In this document: positions 50,501-64,000 of the stretch, piece by piece
How positions within the stretch are numbered: position 1 is the stretch's first letter
Layout of the letters: the number at the start of each line of letters is the position of its first letter
From: Betaproteobacteria bacterium
GTDB lineage: Bacteria > Bdellovibrionota_B > Oligoflexia > Silvanigrellales > Silvanigrellaceae
DNA length: 64,000 nucleotides
NCBI GenBank assembly: GCA_016868315.1
Contig: VGHE01000010.1
Span: 35,160-99,159, forward strand
Direction of reading: 5' to 3'
Notes under the pieces: generated by a model
Database searches by the model: none
What the model was told of the DNA's origin: nothing
The model's input: only the letters and a program-made list of their open reading frames with translations
Translations under genes and position numbers: made by a program

Positions 50501-51823
50501 TCAAGTTTTCTGCACGCGCTTGAGGATGACTTCGCGGGCCCGCACGGTTGGCCCGAGGTTTTCGAGGAGCATTTGGGTTCCAACAATCCGACGATTGAGG
50601 AACATGAGCTCCGCGGGGGGTGGCCTCAACAGTGTGGACTTCGCAAAGCTTAAGATTTTGTCTTTCAATCGCCGGGTCAGGTGACATTCTTTCCACGAAA
50701 AATAGTTGTGAACGAACGGCTCGCAGGTGATGGCCATCATCTGCACAAATGCGTCGCGGGCTTCCTCGGAGTCGGTTGTAAAGAGAAGCTGCATTTTTTC
50801 GGCCACAGCGATGACATCTTTTTTGCTGCCGAACATGCATGCAAGGCAAAGCGCTTTGTAGTTCTCACGCAGGCTCAAGCTGAGTTCTTCTGTTGCACCA
50901 AAGTCGAGCACACACAGTTTACCGTCCGGGGTAACCAGAAAGTTGGCTGGGTTGGGATCGGATTGAATGAATCCGTTGTCGAAGATTTCAAAAAAGAGCA
51001 ACTCAAGCATGGCGCGACCCAGGCGGTCACGCAGGCTTTCGTCGGCCTGACCAACATGCGGCGCACCCGTGTGAGTCATCCAATCCTTAAGATTCATTCC
51101 ATCGACCCAGCGCGTCACCAGCATTTTTTCGTTGCTCAGTGATGCAAAAACCTCGGGCACGATGATGTTCTCGAAACTCTCAAGTTTCTTGCGGTAGAAG
51201 AGGTAAAAGTCGCGCTCTTTCGCGAAATCAAGTTCCTGTAGAAAAAGAGACTCTACGCGTGCAAAGAGATCGTCATAATCAGCTTTTACAGGCAACACGT
51301 TTGCGACAATCAGTACCCGTTTGATGTTCTCGAGGTCGGAACGTACGCTCCGTTCAAGACCAGGATAACGTACCTTTACAGCGACAGGTGTGCCGTCGTG
51401 CAATCGAGCCTTGTGAACCTGGCCAATGCTGGCCGCATGAATTGCCGTTTCCTCGATGTGCGCAAACGGCCAGGAGCCTTCGAGTGCAGATTCAATGAGG
51501 GGTTGAATTTCATTCCAGGGACGCGCTGTTGCATCCGATTGAAGACGCGATAGAGCATCTCGCCAAGGCTTGGGGATGACGGTTTCGTCGGCGAGACTCA
51601 GCATCTGCCCCATCTTCATGGCCGCGCCCTTGAGTTCGTCAAGACCGCGAACCAAGCGCAACGCAGCACCGCTCTGAAGCAAATCCTCTGCAGCAGTGCC
51701 AGTCAGTTTTCGTTTGATTTTTTCGGAGCCTGCGCGAACGGCAGTACTTCCCAGAGTGCGCAGAAGCGATAGCGCTCGTTTACGCGCATCTGTGTCAGTG
51801 CTCAAAATATTCACCCATATCAA
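50501..51823 (-). CDS. ABC1/UbiB-family kinase-like protein, COQ8-like
   Basis: A 440-residue protein of the ABC1 atypical kinase family, whose members support ubiquinone synthesis. AMKMGQMLSLADETVIPK is the KxGQ signature, AASIGQVHKARLHDG the Ala-rich loop, QSDPNPANFLV the catalytic-loop equivalent and VLDFGATEEL the metal-binding DFG. The QSDPNPANF and KMGQMLS forms are nearer to mitochondrial COQ8/ADCK3 than to bacterial UbiB (HADPHPGN). There is no C-terminal UbiB membrane pair. The first codon, TTG at 51823, overlaps the STAS gene's stop by four bases; a later TTG or GTG is possible. The pairing with STAS is unexpected. Family sure, substrate unknown. Confidence 0.85.
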   Translation of the reverse strand: MIWVNILSTDTDARKRALSLLRTLGSTAVRAGSEKIKRKLTGTAAEDLLQSGAALRLVRGLDELKGAAMKMGQMLSLADETVIPKPWRDALSRLQSDATARPWNEIQPLIESALEGSWPFAHIEETAIHAASIGQVHKARLHDGTPVAVKVRYPGLERSVRSDLENIKRVLIVANVLPVKADYDDLFARVESLFLQELDFAKERDFYLFYRKKLESFENIIVPEVFASLSNEKMLVTRWVDGMNLKDWMTHTGAPHVGQADESLRDRLGRAMLELLFFEIFDNGFIQSDPNPANFLVTPDGKLCVLDFGATEELSLSLRENYKALCLACMFGSKKDVIAVAEKMQLLFTTDSEEARDAFVQMMAITCEPFVHNYFSWKECHLTRRLKDKILSFAKSTLLRPPPAELMFLNRRIVGTQMLLENLGPTVRAREVILKRVQKT

Positions 51824-52125
51824 GCAATTTTAAAAAGCTTTTCAAAGCGCAGAGCCTTCATTCCCGTTTGTTCCTTGGGAAGGGCATTCTGAATGATAAC
51901 TTGTTTAAGCAAAACCTGTGGTGCAAGTCGAAAAGCGACAAGAGCACCGTAACCAAGGACGCCCTCGATTTGGCAGGCAGCCAAGTCAAGGACAATGTGA
52001 GTTTGTTTTTTTCCGAGGCAAAGATGCGTGAGCTTTTCGGGAAGAGCACTCGCAGCTGTTTCATCCAGTTGACCATCGAGGGTTAAGACGAGTTTGTCAT
52101 TCGTTTCAAGACAGCTCAAGTTCAT
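51820..52125 (-). CDS. STAS-domain protein without the usual Ser
   Basis: A 101-residue single-domain protein. ATG 52125 follows GGAG by 9 nt; the longer frame is not supported. It reads as a STAS fold: DKLVLTLDGQLDETAASAL, a helix, THIVLDLAACQIEG, then LGYGALVAFRLA. In anti-anti-sigma factors the segment after the strand is D-S-S/A-G-L and holds the phosphorylated Ser; here it is I-E-G-V-L-G-Y-G-A-L, with no Ser or Thr at the site. So it is either not controlled by phosphorylation or a STAS of another type. It overlaps the ABC1 kinase gene by four bases. Confidence 0.75.
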   Translation of the reverse strand: MNLSCLETNDKLVLTLDGQLDETAASALPEKLTHLCLGKKQTHIVLDLAACQIEGVLGYGALVAFRLAPQVLLKQVIIQNALPKEQTGMKALRFEKLFKIA

Positions 52126-52287: not shown

Positions 52288-53061
52288 ATGGATGCGTTTC
52301 CAGCGCGTTTAAACGCTGTTGTTCGTCTTGCTTTCGTTGCTACTGCTGTGCCGTTGTTCACTGCCTGTCTTTCAACCGGCGTGCGTTCGTCCGGCTCTGA
52401 ATTGCCTCAGGCAGCCACGGCGTTTGGTGATGGCCAATTGCGAGTTTCGGTCGATCACAACTGCAAAGAACGCTGTGAAACCATGAGCGTCGATTTCGAA
52501 AACCTGACGACCTCTCCCATGGAGATTCTGGTAAACCAGGCGCGCTTGCAACGGGGCGCCGAGAAATTTGCGCTCAAGCGTCAGGGCGAACAGACAGGCA
52601 ATTTGAAGATTCCCCCGAAGAAAAAAGCGTCCGCCGATTTCGCTCCTTATTCAGCAGCTAACGGTCGACGTCTCAGTTACGTTGCGCCCGAGGCGGTCTG
52701 GTGTTCGCTTAAAGTGAGTCCTGAGTGCAAGAACACAGCCGAGGCTGATGCGTTATGCGCTGGTTACGCCCGCTCCTACTTCGACGTTTATACCGAAGCA
52801 GGAGGATGGATCCTTTTGAATTTTGCCTACAACATGGGTGGCAGAACTGAGATGATTCAAAGCCCGGCTCCGGAGACACTCGGACGCGGTCCCGATGTTC
52901 TTCCAAAGCAGGATGATCGTGCTCCTGCTTTTTTTCGTGAACCCAACAACGTTGTTTTTTACAAAATGGAATGCAACGAAAAGTGCCGCTGCACGGATCT
53001 CACAAAGCCACGGCGTTTCTCGGATGACAAACTGAAGCCTGTGATTGAGCCTATTCCTTAA
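52288..53061 (+). CDS. Predicted lipoprotein
   Basis: A 257-residue exported protein. ATG 52288 follows AGGAG by 8 nt; an upstream open frame overlaps the STAS gene's start region. The signal ends VPLFTAC, a lipobox. The mature part has seven Cys (NCKERCETM, VWCSLK, ECKNTA, ALCAGY, ECNEKCRCTD), enough for several disulphides, and a beta-rich core. Unknown family. It converges on the GHKL gene, and both stop codons share the TTAA at 53058-53061. Confidence 0.72.
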   Translation: MDAFPARLNAVVRLAFVATAVPLFTACLSTGVRSSGSELPQAATAFGDGQLRVSVDHNCKERCETMSVDFENLTTSPMEILVNQARLQRGAEKFALKRQGEQTGNLKIPPKKKASADFAPYSAANGRRLSYVAPEAVWCSLKVSPECKNTAEADALCAGYARSYFDVYTEAGGWILLNFAYNMGGRTEMIQSPAPETLGRGPDVLPKQDDRAPAFFREPNNVVFYKMECNEKCRCTDLTKPRRFSDDKLKPVIEPIP

Positions 53062-53996
53062 ATTGAGAAATAGTGGAATGACCGCGGGCGAGCGTCGAAA
53101 TCCTTGAGCCGGCGTTCGAACCGAAGCAGGCAGACGACTTCGGTCATAAGGTCTGTATGCACATTCACAACAAACTGATGCAGCCTCTCAAACACAAACT
53201 TTATTCCTAAACCGCCGCTTTTGCGCCGCTCCACGTCTCCGAGGTCGAGTGTCGTATCAAGGTAGCGGAGAATTGTGTCTTTCTTGAGTCGGCCAAAGCG
53301 GTCTGTGACTGAGAGACCAAATTGTTCGCCGTCGAAAGCCCATTTGACAGTCACAAGGTCAGTGTTGTCGAGTTTGAACTCCGTACGGTGCGGTTGGCCT
53401 TTGTAACGGTGGTTTGCATCAAATACTGCGTTGAGCACCAATTCGTCGAGCATGTCGGAAATACGGCGTGAGTATTCTTGGAAACGGTTGTTCTCGATGT
53501 TGCCACCGAGAAAACGGACAAAGTCACCGACGCGTTCAATGGCGAGGTTTTTGTCGGAGTGAGTGAGAATATCATGGCGATAGATTTCGCATGATCCCTT
53601 GATGTACTTCTCCACACCGAAAATGTCTGAAGTTTGAAATTTGCGAATGATGGTCTGCATGTCTCGGGGTTCGAATTCATTGTTGTTCGAAGCAACGAAA
53701 CACTGCACAGGAAGGCAGTCGCGGATGTTGTTCGGGAGCTCTCCGATGGGGGAGCGGATGGTTAGAATGATAAGGCAGTTGGGGTACTGTTGGCTAAACT
53801 TGTCCACCAGGTCATGGTGGTTTTCGTCCGAGATGAGCAAATTCCGACGGTGCGAAAAATGGGATTCGTTCATGTGCTGAAAAACTTCTTCTTCCGAAGC
53901 ACATTCAATCAGTGCTATCCCTGCAGAGCGGATGATGACACTCAGGTCATTGATGTTTGCCTTGCTGAATTCCGGAAGAAAAAGAAGAGCGCGCAT
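53058..53996 (-). CDS. Degenerate receiver fused to a GHKL ATPase
   Basis: A 312-residue cytoplasmic protein. GGAG lies 9 nt before the ATG. The N-terminal 120 residues have the alternating strand/helix pattern of a receiver (ALLFLPEFS, NLLISDENH, CLIILTIRSPIG) but not the conserved acidic cluster or an obvious phosphoacceptor. The C-terminal part is a GHKL domain of the anti-sigma type: N box DELVLNAVFDANH, G1 VTDRFGRL, G2 GGLGIKFVFE. There is no HisKA helix pair, so it is not a classical histidine kinase; an RsbW-like role, controlling another protein by ATP-dependent binding or phosphorylation, is inferred. The STAS protein 1 kb away is a candidate partner. Confidence 0.75.
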   Translation of the reverse strand: MRALLFLPEFSKANINDLSVIIRSAGIALIECASEEEVFQHMNESHFSHRRNLLISDENHHDLVDKFSQQYPNCLIILTIRSPIGELPNNIRDCLPVQCFVASNNNEFEPRDMQTIIRKFQTSDIFGVEKYIKGSCEIYRHDILTHSDKNLAIERVGDFVRFLGGNIENNRFQEYSRRISDMLDELVLNAVFDANHRYKGQPHRTEFKLDNTDLVTVKWAFDGEQFGLSVTDRFGRLKKDTILRYLDTTLDLGDVERRKSGGLGIKFVFERLHQFVVNVHTDLMTEVVCLLRFERRLKDFDARPRSFHYFSI

Positions 53997-54078: not shown

Positions 54079-54978
54079 TCAGTTTTTCAATGTCAAACGT
54101 GAACGGAACCAGCACGTCGGACGCAGTCCGAAGGACTTGGCGTCAAGCTCGGTGCAGGAATATTTTGCCGATTCCTCTTCCGATTGAATGCTGTTTTGGC
54201 CGCGTGGGTTTTTCTTTCCAGGAATGAGCATGAAGTCATATGGCTTGCCGCACAGAGCTCCTTGGAAATACGTATCGAGGCGGCACTGCGCTGCTGGATG
54301 GCTGTCTGCAGTGCGTGAAACTTTCTTTGTATCTGGGGTATCGAAGCGGGGCTCAGCAGAGCTTCCAAGTTTCGAAAGCAGGTTGGCAAGCGAGAAGCCC
54401 GCTGCTGCAGTTCGGTAGCACAGGTCGCGGTCATCCTGACCGACGTATGCCTCGTCGCACTTGCTTCTTTCGAAATCGCCCACCTGCGAGCGGAATTGTG
54501 CGTTGACGTCTTTTTGCTCTCCCCAAATACGACGCGCGCAGGTGTGGGTTGCGAAATAATCGGATTGACCCTCATTTGCAGCCCAACTTGTACCCTTTAA
54601 AGGGAATCCAGCGAAGTGGTGACCCAACTCATGGCACACGACCATGGCAAAGCCGTCTGCTGTGACTTCAGAACGACGCGCCAAGCCGCCGTACATGTTG
54701 ATGATCCAAGTGTTGCCCATCTGCTGCGCAGACGCGTTCACTGTGGAGTTCGACCACAAAGCGTTTACTTTGATGTTCGCTTTGTATTTTGCAGCTAGTT
54801 CTTGGTAGTGCTTCACAACACCGTCGATAATCTCTTTGAACTCTTCCTCTGTCATGTTGGCAATCATGCCTAGGTTGTCTTCAAGATGGAGGTCGTTTGG
54901 TGGTAAAATCGATGCCTGCGCCCATGAGGAGACTCCAACGAGAAGGCTGGCGGACAGAAGACGGGTCTTGACGTTCAT
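54079..54978 (-). CDS. Secreted HExxH metallopeptidase, M48-like
   Basis: A 299-residue exported zinc peptidase. ATG 54978 follows GAGGAA; an earlier ATG at 54996 gives six extra residues. The signal peptide ends near SSWAQAS. The zinc site is His116-Glu-Leu-Gly-His in VVCHELGHHFAG, and about 20 residues on comes EGQSDYFA, an E-x-x-x-D as in M48. Three Cys pairs follow (HTCARRIW, RSKCDEAY, DLCYRT; AQCRLDT, ALCGK). Target unknown. The gene is monocistronic, with its own terminator. Confidence 0.82.
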   Translation of the reverse strand: MNVKTRLLSASLLVGVSSWAQASILPPNDLHLEDNLGMIANMTEEEFKEIIDGVVKHYQELAAKYKANIKVNALWSNSTVNASAQQMGNTWIINMYGGLARRSEVTADGFAMVVCHELGHHFAGFPLKGTSWAANEGQSDYFATHTCARRIWGEQKDVNAQFRSQVGDFERSKCDEAYVGQDDRDLCYRTAAAGFSLANLLSKLGSSAEPRFDTPDTKKVSRTADSHPAAQCRLDTYFQGALCGKPYDFMLIPGKKNPRGQNSIQSEEESAKYSCTELDAKSFGLRPTCWFRSRLTLKN

Positions 54979-55243
54979 GCTTGTTCCTCTGGGCATGGTT
55001 TTTCGGTTGGCTCGTCGACCAAGATGCTCCCCTGGCGACAGGAGGCAAACTCAGCCGAGTCGAGAATTTGACTCCTGCGTAGGGGTGTTTATTTCTTGGT
55101 CATTTTTATTCTTTGGTGCCTCTAAATTTGTCAGTAGAGGCTTAGGTTTTAATTTTTCTAAGTAATTGTGACGCCTTAGATTTGGCCTTGGAGTTGCTTA
55201 GCCGATGCGTGTCAGGCGCATTCGGTCGCGTCGAGGAGGGTCT

Positions 55244-58498: not shown

Positions 58499-59181
58499 TC
58501 TGCGCTCGTTTGATTTTCTTTAGGGCAGTGAGCGTTGCGTTGCTGCTGCTGTGTGAGTCTGGCAGTCATTGCGCGTTGGCTCAATCGGCACAGCCGGCTC
58601 AATCGGCACAGCCGGCTCAATCGGCACAGCTGGCGAATGATTGGCGTGAAACTCTCAATGACGATGGTATCCAGGTCTACAAGAGAACGCGCCTCGGAAG
58701 TGCGTACGAGGAGGTTCGTGCGCTCGCGCGCTTATCAGCCCGAGTCGACGACTTTATCCCGTTTTTTACCGAGCCTGCTCAATACAAGCGCTGGGTTTAC
58801 GGCACGGTTGAAAGCGGTCTTGTGAGTCGAACCCAACCCTTCGACTTCACTTTTAAGGGTGTCTTCAAAATCCCGTGGCCCTTTGAAAACCGTGAACTCA
58901 TCAGCCGTGTTGAAATTGAGCGCAAACCTGATGGAAGTGCTCTGACGGCGAAACTGAATCATGCCGACTCCCGTGCAGCCGTCACTTCGGGCTGCGTTCG
59001 TGTTTCTCATTTTGAGAGTCTGTGGCAGGTCAAGCAAGAGGATGCCAAAACAGTCAATTTCAGGATTGAGATGTACGTTGAGCCTGGAGGTCAATTGCCG
59101 CCGTTCATTGTGAACCTTGTGCTCTCGCGGATTCAGCTCTGGTCTATTAAAAACCTCAAGCGCGAGATTGCTCTGCGTTAA
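58495..59181 (+). CDS. Secreted START-domain-like lipid-binding protein
   Basis: A 228-residue exported protein. GTG 58495 overlaps the glnS stop (GTGA) and follows AAGGA by 8 nt, so it is coupled to glnS. A signal peptide (FFRAVSVALLLLCESGSHCALA) leads into three six-residue repeats AQSAQP and then a START/SRPBCC-like fold (DDGIQVYKRTRLGSAYEEVRA, ARVDDFIPFFTEPAQYKRWVYG, KIPWPFENRELISRVE, VNFRIEMYVEPGGQLPPFIVN). START domains hold a lipid or other hydrophobic ligand. Its final codons share TTAA with the next gene's stop on the other strand. Confidence 0.82.
   Translation: MICARLIFFRAVSVALLLLCESGSHCALAQSAQPAQSAQPAQSAQLANDWRETLNDDGIQVYKRTRLGSAYEEVRALARLSARVDDFIPFFTEPAQYKRWVYGTVESGLVSRTQPFDFTFKGVFKIPWPFENRELISRVEIERKPDGSALTAKLNHADSRAAVTSGCVRVSHFESLWQVKQEDAKTVNFRIEMYVEPGGQLPPFIVNLVLSRIQLWSIKNLKREIALR
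58579..58632 (+). repeat. Three tandem 18-base repeats
   Basis: Three direct copies of GCTCAATCGGCACAGCCG, the last with one change (CTG for CCG), encode AQSAQP twice and AQSAQL. They sit just after the signal peptide. Copy number can vary without a frameshift, as the unit is a multiple of three. Confidence 0.9.
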
Positions 59182-62100
59182 CCAGCAAGCGGCAGCCCAT
59201 GGTACTCTGCCTTGTTCTGGTTGCGCTCAGCTTGCCAGCGGAACATGTACACCGTGACGTCGTCTTCAAGTGCCTGTTGCTGAGCTGCAGTTCTAACAAG
59301 GTGCGCGAGATCTTCCACACAAATGGATGGCTCTTGGCTTGCTTGTATAGATTTGCGGAGGTTTCTTGAGCTGAGAATCGGTTTTCCATCGCATATGTTT
59401 TCAACCAGCCCGTCTGTGTAAAGAAAAATGCTGTCACCCGGGGAAAGTGTATGCTTTGCAAATCCAAAGGCAGGTGTCTCCGAGAATCCAAGCAGAGAAC
59501 CACTACAAGGCAGGGCGCTAACTCGACCCTCATGAGCGCTGTAAACGTAGGGAGGTGGGTGTCCAGCATTCACCATACCCAACTCACCTGTTTTTAAATC
59601 CAAGCATACAAAGCTCATCGTCATGAAGCGCTGACTTCGTGCTCCAGCACTGAATACTGCAAAATTTGCGATCTCTGCTAACTCTTTTAAGCTTTCCTCG
59701 AGACCGAGAAGGTCACCGCGTGCGCGCTCAAAATCCCTCTTGAGATGCGACTGTATGGCTCCACTGACCACGGCTGTCAGCATCGCCGAGGGTAGACCAT
59801 GTCCTGTGACGTCGCCAACGAAAGCATACAGACGGTCGTGTGCGGCATCGAAGTGATGGTGAAACCAATCGCCTCCCGTTTGCGATGCTGGCTCGTAAAA
59901 ATAGGAAATTTCGAGCGAAGGAACTTCGATACTGTTTGGCAAAAGCGCGTTCTGCATGAGTCGAGCGGCATTGAGCTCTGCATCGAGACGAGCCTTTTCT
60001 TCTTTGGCGTTCAGGAGGATGAAGTTCTGATAGGTGATCGCAGCCTGCGAGGCGAGGGGAGAAACCACTCGCTGTGACCGTGCATCAAAGTACTCGTTGA
60101 CCTCGACGTTAGCGAGGTAGCAGTATCCGTAAATCTTTTCCTTAAAGGGCAGGGGCACAACCATCGCCGAACCATCGCAGGCCGGGTGCGGAGTGCGCCA
60201 AGCCGTAGGCCGAATACGTGGTTCGCGCTTGACCTCCTGTGCACACTTTTCAAGAAACCATTTATCGATTCCTGATGCAGGATTGACTGATTCGCCGACC
60301 TCCTCGAGCAGACAGCCACGCGTGCGCACAGGCTTCAGGTTTTCACCTTCGTAAAGAAACAAAGCTCCCACTCGCGCGCCGGTGCTGTGGCACATTGCAT
60401 CCAGAACGGCATCGAGGAACGGCTCTTTTTCATTGAGCGCACTCAGGTTCAAGAAAATCTGGAGCAGCGACTCAATCTCGACACGGTGCCGCATGACCTC
60501 TGTCTTCGAGCTGCGGTTGCTGCTTTGGCTGCTAAAAGTAGGACCGACTGCGGGCGAGCGGGTCGAACGTCCCGAGTTGCTTGAGTGCTTTTGTGTCGTG
60601 AAAGATTCAGCAAGCATTTGCGAGCGCAAAATCCCACGGTCACACCTGTCGACGTAAAATAGATATTGCCGTTCGGAGAAATACTCACGGCACATGCGGT
60701 AAACTATTCCGGCATATTCCGGATCATCGTCGACAATCATGCTGGCAAAGTTCATGCGGAGTTCATGGGTGATGGCAGGTAAGCGATGATAGTGTGCTTT
60801 TTCAATACCTTTTTGCGCGAACCAGCGCCCCAAAATGCGAGCACCAGAACGATACAGTAGCTCACCTGTCACAAAACACGTCTTGGGAAGAAGGAGCCGC
60901 GCCGAGAAAATTTGATTGACCCAAGCCAGCGCAAGCGGTGGTAGGGCCGCCCACGGGCGATTGAGTCGCACATAACACAGTGCAAGAATCACAGGTACAA
61001 AGATGCAATACGACACCCTGTGTGCATGCCGCACGACAATGCGGAATGCCTCCTGGAGATAGGGAAGAGCAGATTGTGGATCCTCGCGCAGAATGTTCAG
61101 TTCACCCAGCGAGAGATGTGCATAACATGAGTCGATGGTGTCGAAGCCATCGGCGCGAATCGCCTGTCCAGCTTCCGCAACAATTTTTTCATATTTTTCG
61201 AGTTCTTCCTGGTTCTTTGTGAGCAAATGATGCCGCAAAACTGCATCTAGGATGGTTGGGGTTTGTTTGATTCTGAAGATGAGATTGGTATAGCGCGATA
61301 GAAGTGCGTAAGTCTCACCGTTGCCGAGCCCGTATTCGTCCATGTGGATCAGACCTTGCATGGTCAGAACCCGCCAGAATGACTCGCCGGCTGTTTCCAA
61401 TGTTTCCAGCGCTTGGACGTGTTTGCTGTGTGATTCGCGCAGTCGTGCGCGTGGAAACTCATTCAAGTAGCCCCAGGTGAAAAGCAGGAACGAGCGCGCA
61501 ATCGGGTCTGGATGTTGCTCGAAATACTGAAGCGAGCTTCTATAAATTCGGTTTGATATTTTTGCGATTCCAAAAACGCCCGCAACAACACCCCAATATC
61601 CTATGATCATAGCGCGGTGCTTGCAGGGTTCGTGCCGCAGTAAGGTTAGGGTATAGCGCATCTGATTGCTTACGGCACAAACTGGCCGTGAGAAGAACAA
61701 AGCGACTTGTATATTCACGAGCAGTTTGAAGAAGATTTCGTCTTGTTGTGTTTGGAATTTCTTTTCGGCCTTTCCAAAAAGTCGCCACCATGCCAAGCCC
61801 ACTGCAAAGGGAATGAGCAGGGCAAAAATCATCAAGAGTGATTTGCCTTCGCTTGTGTCGATTTTCCGCTTGAGAAGTTGAACCCCTTGTATGCCAGCTT
61901 CAAGGCTGTCGCGGTAGCGAAACAAAGTCAGGTTACACTCACAAAGTTTGCCCAAAATTTCCGTTTTATGAAGATCAATCTTTATATAATCAAGCAGACT
62001 GGTGTACAGATCGACTGCACCAACAGGATCTTCATTGAGCACACGTGCGTCTGCAAGAAGTTCGCTGATGAGTATGAATTCGTTGAGCACCTGTGGATTT

Positions 62101-64000
62101 GCTCTGACATCGTCTGGAAGCAATTGGTGGGCTGTTTGCGCGTATTCGAGTGCTTTCTGGAATGCAAAGACTTTGAGTGCCAGTCGACCCGCATTCAGTA
62201 GAATACCTCGCGCCCATCCTGGATCACGCTGTGGGCGTCCGTTTTTAAGATGATAAGCCAGTTCGAAAGGTTCAATTGCAACACGGCGACCGCCCGGGGT
62301 TTTGTCATTTTCCTCTTGAACCATTTTGCGGTGAAGCCAGACGGCATAACCGTGGTGGCAATCCGTTCTAAGCTCGTGCCCCGCCATCTGATAGGCAGCC
62401 TCACGAACCTTGTCGTGCACAAAACTCAAGGTGTCTCGCCCGAAGTAAACGAGGTGTTTTTCCGAAAGTTCACTGAGGCAACGCAGTAGCGGTGCTTTGA
62501 TTTCCTTTTCCCGCAGGAGATACTCAAGAGCTCCGAGTTGAACTTCGTTCCCAACCACACTGGCAACCAGCAGCAGTTGCTTGCTCTCGGGGTTGAGCTC
62601 AGCGATCCGTTCGGAGACAAGCGAGGCGATTCCATGCGACAAAGATGCACTCTGTGCCTTTGCGGAATCGAAGAACCATTCATCGCCGCTTTCATCAGGA
62701 TGATAGATTTCTTTGGTCAAGCAAAAGTTGAGATATTCTCTGATATAGAAAGGATTTCCCTGAGTCAGTAAAAAGGTCATGCGCTGCAGTTTGGTGATTT
62801 GGGCGCCTGCTTCGTCAAGCAGATTTTCGACTAAAGCATTCGACTCTTCTTCGCTGAGTGGCCCAAGCATTACGTGCGATTGTGGGCCTTCGTGTTGCAG
62901 GATGCGCTGATAAAATGGATGCTCTTGGGTAACTTCATTGCTTCGATAGGAACCAAGAAGAAGAAGCTTACCGAGTTCACCTTTTCGAGCCCGTGCAGAT
63001 ACGATTTCAATGACCGACAGGCTCTCCGTGTCAGCCCACTGCAGGTCATCGAGAACAAGGATCAAAGCAGCATCTCGAAGCCCGAACATGACCAATAAAT
63101 CAACGAGTGTTTCAAGGAAGGTTCGAGATTCATCCTCAAATTCTTCGTGTGGCAATTCTTTGGTGAAGGAGAAAATATCGCGCAGCGAGGTGAAGCGTTG
63201 TGTGAGAAGTCTGAGGCGCGCACCGAGAACGTTGCCCACGTCTTTTGCCCAGCTCTTTGTTTCGGCTTCCGGTTCGAGCGCCATTTCACGAAGGTAGCCA
63301 TGTATAATGGAAAGAATGCCAGACAGCGGCACATTTCGTTCGAACTCGGAAAACTTTCCAATGAGTGTGCGCACTCCGAGGCTCGAGGCCTTCCACCCGA
63401 CCTCGTAGCACAGGCGCGATTTTCCTCCGCCGGAGGGTGCTCCGATAAAGGCGCATCCACCGCGTCCACTGATGGCCTCGTCGAGTTGGTTTCCGAGCTT
63501 GTTGAGCTCGCTCTTTCTTCCCACAAAGGCGATTTTTGTCTTCAATTCACGGATGCGATCTTTTTTCCCGAGCGCAAAAATAGAGACGTGCCGAGATTCT
63601 GTTAATTCGGCAAGACAAAGGCGCAGGTCGTATGCCAGACCGCGCGCACTTGCATAGCGATCGTCGGGGTTCTTGCGCAGGAGTTTCTGCACGATTTCGC
63701 TGAGTGGTTCAGGGAATGAGGGAATTTCTTCGCTGAGTGGCTGAGGCACTCCATTGAGGATTTTCTCGAGAAGCAACTTTGGTGTTGCTTCCCGAAAGGG
63801 CGGGTGTCCCGTTGCCACTTCATAGAGAGTCGCTCCGAGTGAATAAAGGTCGGCCTGTTCTTCTCGCTTTGCTTTGATAAAGCCGCTTCTCTCGGGTGCA
63901 AGATAGGGCAGGGTTGCCAGGGCATGTGCGGGTCGACTCAAAAAATCGCTGCTGTTGATGAGTGCCGCTTGTCCGAAGTCTACGAATACAGGTTGATTGT
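59178..64000 (-). CDS. Ser/Thr kinase-AAA ATPase-GAF-SpoIIE phosphatase, partial
   Basis: The 3' portion (about 1606 residues) of a giant signalling protein that runs off the window. It enters in the kinase C-lobe: VDFGQAALI is the DFG segment and PYLAPERSG the APE. Next is an AAA_16-type ATPase with Walker A GAPSGGGKS near 186 and Walker B LILVLDDLQWAD near 315, then about 700 residues of helical repeats, one of them hydrophobic enough to be a membrane segment (near 715-740), a GAF domain (about 1170-1330), and a SpoIIE-type PP2C phosphatase (about 1365-1585) with GGDWF, VGDVTGHG and FLYTDGLVE. Kinase and phosphatase active sites both look intact. Likely target: a STAS or similar protein. 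Confidence 0.9.
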   Translation of the reverse strand, partial: NQPVFVDFGQAALINSSDFLSRPAHALATLPYLAPERSGFIKAKREEQADLYSLGATLYEVATGHPPFREATPKLLLEKILNGVPQPLSEEIPSFPEPLSEIVQKLLRKNPDDRYASARGLAYDLRLCLAELTESRHVSIFALGKKDRIRELKTKIAFVGRKSELNKLGNQLDEAISGRGGCAFIGAPSGGGKSRLCYEVGWKASSLGVRTLIGKFSEFERNVPLSGILSIIHGYLREMALEPEAETKSWAKDVGNVLGARLRLLTQRFTSLRDIFSFTKELPHEEFEDESRTFLETLVDLLVMFGLRDAALILVLDDLQWADTESLSVIEIVSARARKGELGKLLLLGSYRSNEVTQEHPFYQRILQHEGPQSHVMLGPLSEEESNALVENLLDEAGAQITKLQRMTFLLTQGNPFYIREYLNFCLTKEIYHPDESGDEWFFDSAKAQSASLSHGIASLVSERIAELNPESKQLLLVASVVGNEVQLGALEYLLREKEIKAPLLRCLSELSEKHLVYFGRDTLSFVHDKVREAAYQMAGHELRTDCHHGYAVWLHRKMVQEENDKTPGGRRVAIEPFELAYHLKNGRPQRDPGWARGILLNAGRLALKVFAFQKALEYAQTAHQLLPDDVRANPQVLNEFILISELLADARVLNEDPVGAVDLYTSLLDYIKIDLHKTEILGKLCECNLTLFRYRDSLEAGIQGVQLLKRKIDTSEGKSLLMIFALLIPFAVGLAWWRLFGKAEKKFQTQQDEIFFKLLVNIQVALFFSRPVCAVSNQMRYTLTLLRHEPCKHRAMIIGYWGVVAGVFGIAKISNRIYRSSLQYFEQHPDPIARSFLLFTWGYLNEFPRARLRESHSKHVQALETLETAGESFWRVLTMQGLIHMDEYGLGNGETYALLSRYTNLIFRIKQTPTILDAVLRHHLLTKNQEELEKYEKIVAEAGQAIRADGFDTIDSCYAHLSLGELNILREDPQSALPYLQEAFRIVVRHAHRVSYCIFVPVILALCYVRLNRPWAALPPLALAWVNQIFSARLLLPKTCFVTGELLYRSGARILGRWFAQKGIEKAHYHRLPAITHELRMNFASMIVDDDPEYAGIVYRMCREYFSERQYLFYVDRCDRGILRSQMLAESFTTQKHSSNSGRSTRSPAVGPTFSSQSSNRSSKTEVMRHRVEIESLLQIFLNLSALNEKEPFLDAVLDAMCHSTGARVGALFLYEGENLKPVRTRGCLLEEVGESVNPASGIDKWFLEKCAQEVKREPRIRPTAWRTPHPACDGSAMVVPLPFKEKIYGYCYLANVEVNEYFDARSQRVVSPLASQAAITYQNFILLNAKEEKARLDAELNAARLMQNALLPNSIEVPSLEISYFYEPASQTGGDWFHHHFDAAHDRLYAFVGDVTGHGLPSAMLTAVVSGAIQSHLKRDFERARGDLLGLEESLKELAEIANFAVFSAGARSQRFMTMSFVCLDLKTGELGMVNAGHPPPYVYSAHEGRVSALPCSGSLLGFSETPAFGFAKHTLSPGDSIFLYTDGLVENICDGKPILSSRNLRKSIQASQEPSICVEDLAHLVRTAAQQQALEDDVTVYMFRWQAERNQNKAEYHGLPLAG

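Follow-up and report, generated by a model that had tools for sequence, protein, structure and literature searches.

The window (the whole 64,000-nucleotide stretch analysed) is part of a 99-kb contig from a genome of 3.2 Mb. Among named organisms, that genome is closest to metagenome-assembled bacteria of the Bdellovibrionota that resemble Silvanigrella; in a kinase tree, the window's ABC1 kinase falls within the Silvanigrellales. An earlier note on this DNA had described a STAS gene followed by this kinase gene, and both were recovered on the minus strand at the same positions, scoring 25.6 bits against PF01740 (Pfam curated cut-off 22.6) and 185.6 bits against PF03109 (also above the cut-off), respectively. 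The gene order is adenylosuccinate synthetase (-), a secreted protein (-), a TPR protein (+), dapC (+), dapD (+), the kinase (-) and STAS (-); past the STAS gene come a divergent lipoprotein-like gene (+), a HATPase-like gene (-) and others. The features considered here are listed below, with the evidence for each in brackets.

50501-51805, minus strand: COQ8-type ABC1/UbiB kinase, 434 aa, likeliest start TTG 51805 (PF03109, alignment, SD)
50501-51823, minus strand: kinase open frame taken to the most upstream TTG, 51823, 440 aa (sequence)
51806-51819, minus strand: spacer of 14 nt that separates the STAS stop from the likely kinase start and contains SD-like GGGTGA at 51816-51811 (sequence)
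51820-51823, minus strand: TTGA overlap, an unlikely kinase start (sequence)
51820-52125, minus strand: single-domain STAS protein of SpoIIAA/TM1442 type, 101 aa, V56 at the phosphoacceptor position (PF01740, AF2 model, codon-position pattern)
52291-53061, plus strand: divergent lipoprotein-like gene, conserved beside the pair (conservation; no Pfam match)
53058-53996, minus strand: HATPase (GHKL)-like protein, a candidate rival partner of the STAS protein (conserved in the genus; relatives match HATPase_c_2)
54079-54996, minus strand: secreted protein with a CHELGHH (HExxH-type) motif (conserved in the genus)
59178-63941, minus strand: 1587-aa protein with partial kinase, AAA, GAF and SpoIIE phosphatase domains (domain matches)

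The lipoprotein-like gene adjoins the kinase or the pair in the window genome (G000) and in G001, G002 and G003, and its N-terminus is visible at the contig end in G005. The CHELGHH motif makes the protein at 54079-54996 a possible zinc metallopeptidase, and the protein at 59178-63941 may be a partner-switch phosphatase. A promoter and terminator scan gave no signal above chance.

The two proteins and the spacing of their genes

The kinase had been called COQ8-like on account of its KMGQMLS and QSDPNPANF motifs, and the assignment holds: both motifs are present, and in a profile search the best solved matches were the COQ8A ancestor (5.9e-75) and COQ8B (4.7e-74), while bacterial ABC1 structures matched less well (2.4e-55 and 2.3e-53), that is, about 1e-74 versus about 1e-54. 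Judged by these profile matches, the kinase is of COQ8 type, nearer to COQ8 than to the other solved UbiB-family proteins. The Lys and Gln of KxGQ, the AAS loop, the ATP-binding Lys, the DPNPxN loop and DFG are invariant across 15 orthologues, and the kinase thus looks like an active enzyme. It scored 150.3 bits against TIGR01982, for which the equivalog cut-off is 487.55, and so it is not a UbiB equivalog; a second, higher-scoring ABC1 protein of 574 aa is encoded on another contig of the same genome.

UbiG-like matches above the cut-off were obtained in G000-G003, among them the three genomes from the window's genus, and MqnA/MqnD-family matches above the cut-off in G000-G003 and G005; a quinone role of the kinase is therefore possible. 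From its family, the kinase may support isoprenoid-quinone or other lipid metabolism, the UbiG-like matches being circumstantial. The presence of both UbiG-like and MqnA/MqnD matches in G000-G003 suggests capacity for ubiquinone and menaquinone together; in the Silvanigrella genomes tested MqnA/MqnD had no match, though UbiG is present.

Homologues of the STAS protein were found in relatives at 83, 58 and 33% identity. Mismatches at codon positions 1, 2 and 3 numbered 17, 10 and 58 against G001 and 35, 25 and 68 against G002, and pN ranged from 0.13 to 0.47 per site (0.13 against G001) with pS near saturation. On this pattern the STAS frame is a protein-coding gene under purifying selection; a chance open frame is ruled out by the codon-position pattern together with the homologues. 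The AlphaFold (AF2) model has a mean pLDDT of 92.8, and its best fold matches were TM1442, SpoIIAA and RsbV (Z 14-15), with MlaB weaker at Z 11.6. Against TM1442 the model gave Z 15.4 with an rmsd of 1.7 across 100 residues, and the sequence profile gave E 2.6e-10, so that the predicted fold is assigned with confidence to the SpoIIAA/TM1442 type.

STAS proteins are classical kinase substrates (PMC7367683). The phosphoacceptor position, placed by alignment with TM1442 and SpoIIAA, is residue 56, occupied by V, V, S and N across the four copies; a phosphorylatable Ser/Thr at the start of alpha-2 is kept in G002 only (Ser56), a pattern that speaks against an ordinary partner switch. Of the 26 invariant STAS residues, nine fall within residues 55-69, the alpha-2 region (hypergeometric p ~0.0025 on four sequences, three of them close, with the region picked after seeing the alignment). 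This conservation is suggestive of a binding protein that lost the usual phospho-switch.

According to the earlier note, the STAS and kinase genes overlap by four bases. The bases TTGA are in the sequence, but the overlap needs the most upstream in-frame TTG (51823) as kinase start. The SD-like GGGTGA lies 5 nt ahead of TTG 51805, where the protein alignment begins; G001 has the identical arrangement (GGGTGA, 7 nt, TTG), and in G002 and G005 the kinase ATG lies 9 and 7 nt past the STAS stop. Homology and ribosome-binding sites make TTG 51805 the most likely start, and the genes thus appear closely spaced (7-16 nt) in the four genomes, not overlapping. With spacers of 14 nt in the window, 16 in G001, 9 in G002 and 7 in G005, a shared transcript and translational coupling are likely: the two genes are probably co-transcribed, and the coupling of their translation is plausible.

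Distribution and history of the pair

In a survey of 56 genomes of the class, counting kinase relatives at E 1e-20 or better, the kinase was found in 52 genomes and the STAS protein in four, namely three species of the window's genus and one species (G005) of a second genus of Silvanigrellaceae. In each of these four the STAS gene immediately precedes the kinase; the STAS profile run across 58 genomes of the phylum returned the same four genomes, and when all PF01740 and kinase positions in the 56 genomes were compared, no further adjacent pair came up. A wider set of 80 kinase loci was drawn from 84,980 species genomes by similarity to the window kinase, with more distant ABC1 kinases falling outside it. 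A local STAS profile applied to all ORFs found an adjacent STAS at three of these loci (L080, L081 and L087, corresponding to G001, G002 and G005) and at none of the other 77, and Pfam analysis of 55 same-strand neighbours of the kinases agreed, with three STAS proteins.

Adjacent pairs, for which the earlier note proposed a search, were found in 4/56 genomes and at none of the 77 other kinase loci. The two findings that the note had named as fatal to its reading, a pairing unique to this one genome and a STAS frame non-coding in relatives, did not materialise, since the pair occurs in four genomes of two genera and the frame is under purifying selection. Among the genomes and loci surveyed, the genuine STAS-kinase pair is restricted to part of the Silvanigrellaceae. 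A pair widespread in bacteria is unsupported, the adjacent STAS occurring just at L080, L081 and L087 among the 80 loci. About 1.5 kb upstream of a Rhodobacteraceae kinase the profile also found an unrelated, RsbV-like STAS with a DSSG motif (L132:1989-2429, minus strand); it is on the opposite strand to the kinase and forms no operon pair with it.

The kinase was found in all 15 family and order members searched, mostly without STAS, and is thus independent of it: no adjacent STAS lies beside the kinase in G003, in G004 or in any Silvanigrella, and in G003 the lipoprotein-like gene adjoins the kinase with no STAS between. In several Silvanigrella and relatives (L084, L085 and L016-L022) the STAS-less kinase gene stands between genes for S-adenosylmethionine decarboxylase, which it follows, and 6-pyruvoyl-tetrahydropterin synthase.

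G005 is collinear with the window over TPR, dapC, dapD, kinase and STAS. Identity to G005 is 33% for STAS, 46% for the kinase and 62% for DapD, the STAS protein evolving faster than its neighbours. In a tree of the 80 kinases, members of the window's genus fall together with the Silvanigrella clade, whereas G005 sits alongside G003 and G004 close to the base of the order; the kinases that have a STAS gene do not form a single clade, which amounts to at least two gains or losses. We infer one ancestral pair followed by several losses, two gains being less likely because the gene order is shared. As the pair lies within a larger conserved gene block, its adjacency is weak evidence of contact.

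Candidate partners of the STAS protein

By analogy with MlaB, a STAS protein that is a subunit of the ATPase MlaF (PMC7367683), the STAS protein may be a phosphorylation-independent docking or stabilising subunit of the co-translated kinase; this is our preferred working model, to which we give a probability of a little over one in three. The STAS protein would be made just ahead of the kinase and would bind it via the conserved alpha-2 helix, alpha-2 being the centre of the MlaB-MlaF interface (PMC7367683). Binding could then tune the abundance, location or ATPase activity of the kinase, much as MlaB does for MlaF. Since relatives retain the kinase in the absence of the STAS, such regulation would be an optional addition specific to the lineage. 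The fuller claim, of a dedicated STAS subunit whose phosphorylation-independent docking regulates a COQ8-type kinase, is on balance unlikely.

Points in favour of docking are the adjacency in four genomes of two genera with its 7-16 nt spacing, the invariant kinase motifs, the confident STAS fold, the alpha-2 invariants, and UbiG-like matches that fit a quinone role; moreover, this STAS is the only PF01740 match per genome in all three genomes of the window's genus. Against it, the block of TPR, dapC, dapD, kinase and STAS is collinear in G005, so that adjacency is not specific to the pair, and G003, G004, Silvanigrella and the 77 other loci have the kinase without adjacent STAS; for an argument from conservation, moreover, four sequences with three close to one another are a small number. 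Because the adjacency is part of a wider block and most relatives are without STAS, we put docking level with the explanation that the two proteins are co-transcribed neighbours that never touch, the STAS gene being an old passenger of the dapC-dapD/kinase/lipoprotein block that has an unrelated partner and has been lost from several lineages without effect on the kinase. Conservation of the whole block, a kinase that persists without STAS in most of the family, the at least two gains or losses in the kinase tree and the faster evolution of the STAS protein all favour absence of contact. This explanation fits less easily with a 7-16 nt spacing that was kept in four genomes despite changed spacer sequence, and with a genus that has no other PF01740 protein.

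It is improbable that the STAS protein instead antagonises a HATPase-type kinase, such as that at 53058-53996, in a partner switch that would also involve the SpoIIE-type phosphatase at 59178-63941, and that the COQ8-like kinase is a mere downstream neighbour. The STAS fold is nearest to antagonists of the SpoIIAA/RsbV type, a SpoIIE-domain protein lies in the same window, and the HATPase-like gene is one gene away and conserved in the genus. The HATPase-like protein (312 aa) has HATPase-like motifs; Pfam made no call for it, two of its relatives match HATPase_c_2 (3e-5 or weaker) and one HATPase_c. Its profile gave weak matches only to solved structures, two of them to histidine-kinase ATPase domains, and its AlphaFold model, built on a three-sequence alignment, has a mean pLDDT of 44 and was set aside. 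As many as four or five relatives occur in one genome in this family, and several of them are paired with a STAS-like gene; L063, L064 and L068 (Silvanigrella) carry an operon of STAS-like, HATPase-like and PAS-type sensor proteins.

The Silvanigrella orthologues of this HATPase overlap a STAS-like gene by four bases, a point in favour of the partner switch; that gene is a different one from the STAS gene under study, and its product scores 15.8 bits, under the Pfam STAS cut-off. The window genome also still has a member of this STAS-like family, encoded on contig C8 apart from the HATPase gene and with its Asn-Ser motif kept, and the HATPase therefore has a likelier partner than the STAS protein under study. 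The proposal that the latter was the ancestral partner of the HATPase is weakened by this survival. The phosphoacceptor is also lost in three of the four STAS copies, and a divergent gene stands between HATPase and STAS.

Very improbable is that the STAS protein serves as a substrate or pseudo-substrate of the COQ8-like kinase and not as its regulator: the standing of STAS proteins as kinase substrates and the Ser56 of G002 speak for it, but the other three copies have V, V and N there, and COQ8 acts as an ATPase with little trans-phosphorylation of proteins.

Comparison with known systems

The control and targets of COQ8-type kinases are still debated, and if a bacterial COQ8 homologue had a small soluble partner encoded next to it, kinase control could be studied in a simple system of two genes. 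If docking is true, a bacterial COQ8-like enzyme would for the first time have a genetically encoded partner system, and STAS proteins would gain a new kind of client in addition to anti-sigma kinases, cyclases and ABC ATPases; without such an interaction, the pair is merely a lineage-specific gene neighbourhood. The earlier note knew of no established pairing of STAS with ABC1 kinases, in agreement with our search of open-licence papers for STAS with UbiB, ABC1 kinase or aarF, which found no paper on one. A 2005 survey of kinases in prokaryotes reports ABC1 kinases that carry Usp or RIO1 domains; its lone "stas" match is "stasis" in a reference title.

STAS or STAS-like proteins are known to control enzymes such as diguanylate cyclases (PMC8457831). 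With MlaB/MlaF (PMC7367683), the window STAS shares its small size and its position beside a gene for an ATP-using lipid-metabolism enzyme, binding being proposed only; it differs in that the partner of MlaB is an ABC ATPase, whereas the candidate partner here is a kinase, and the fold match is weaker (Z 11.6). No mla-like genes (mlaF, mlaE or mlaD) are among the neighbours, which are dapC, dapD, TPR, kinase, lipoprotein, HATPase-like and others.

The single-domain anti-sigma-factor antagonists TM1442, SpoIIAA and RsbV resemble the window STAS in length and fold, but its phosphoacceptor is not conserved and no anti-sigma HATPase gene lies directly adjacent in its operon, the HATPase-like gene sitting past a divergent gene. 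As for the kinase, it belongs with E. coli-type UbiB in the ABC1/UbiB family, although far under the equivalog cut-off. With COQ8A and COQ8B (ADCK3 and ADCK4) it has in common KxGQ, the AASIGQVH loop, the QSDPNPANF catalytic loop and DFGAT; unlike them, it is bacterial and has a STAS gene in front.
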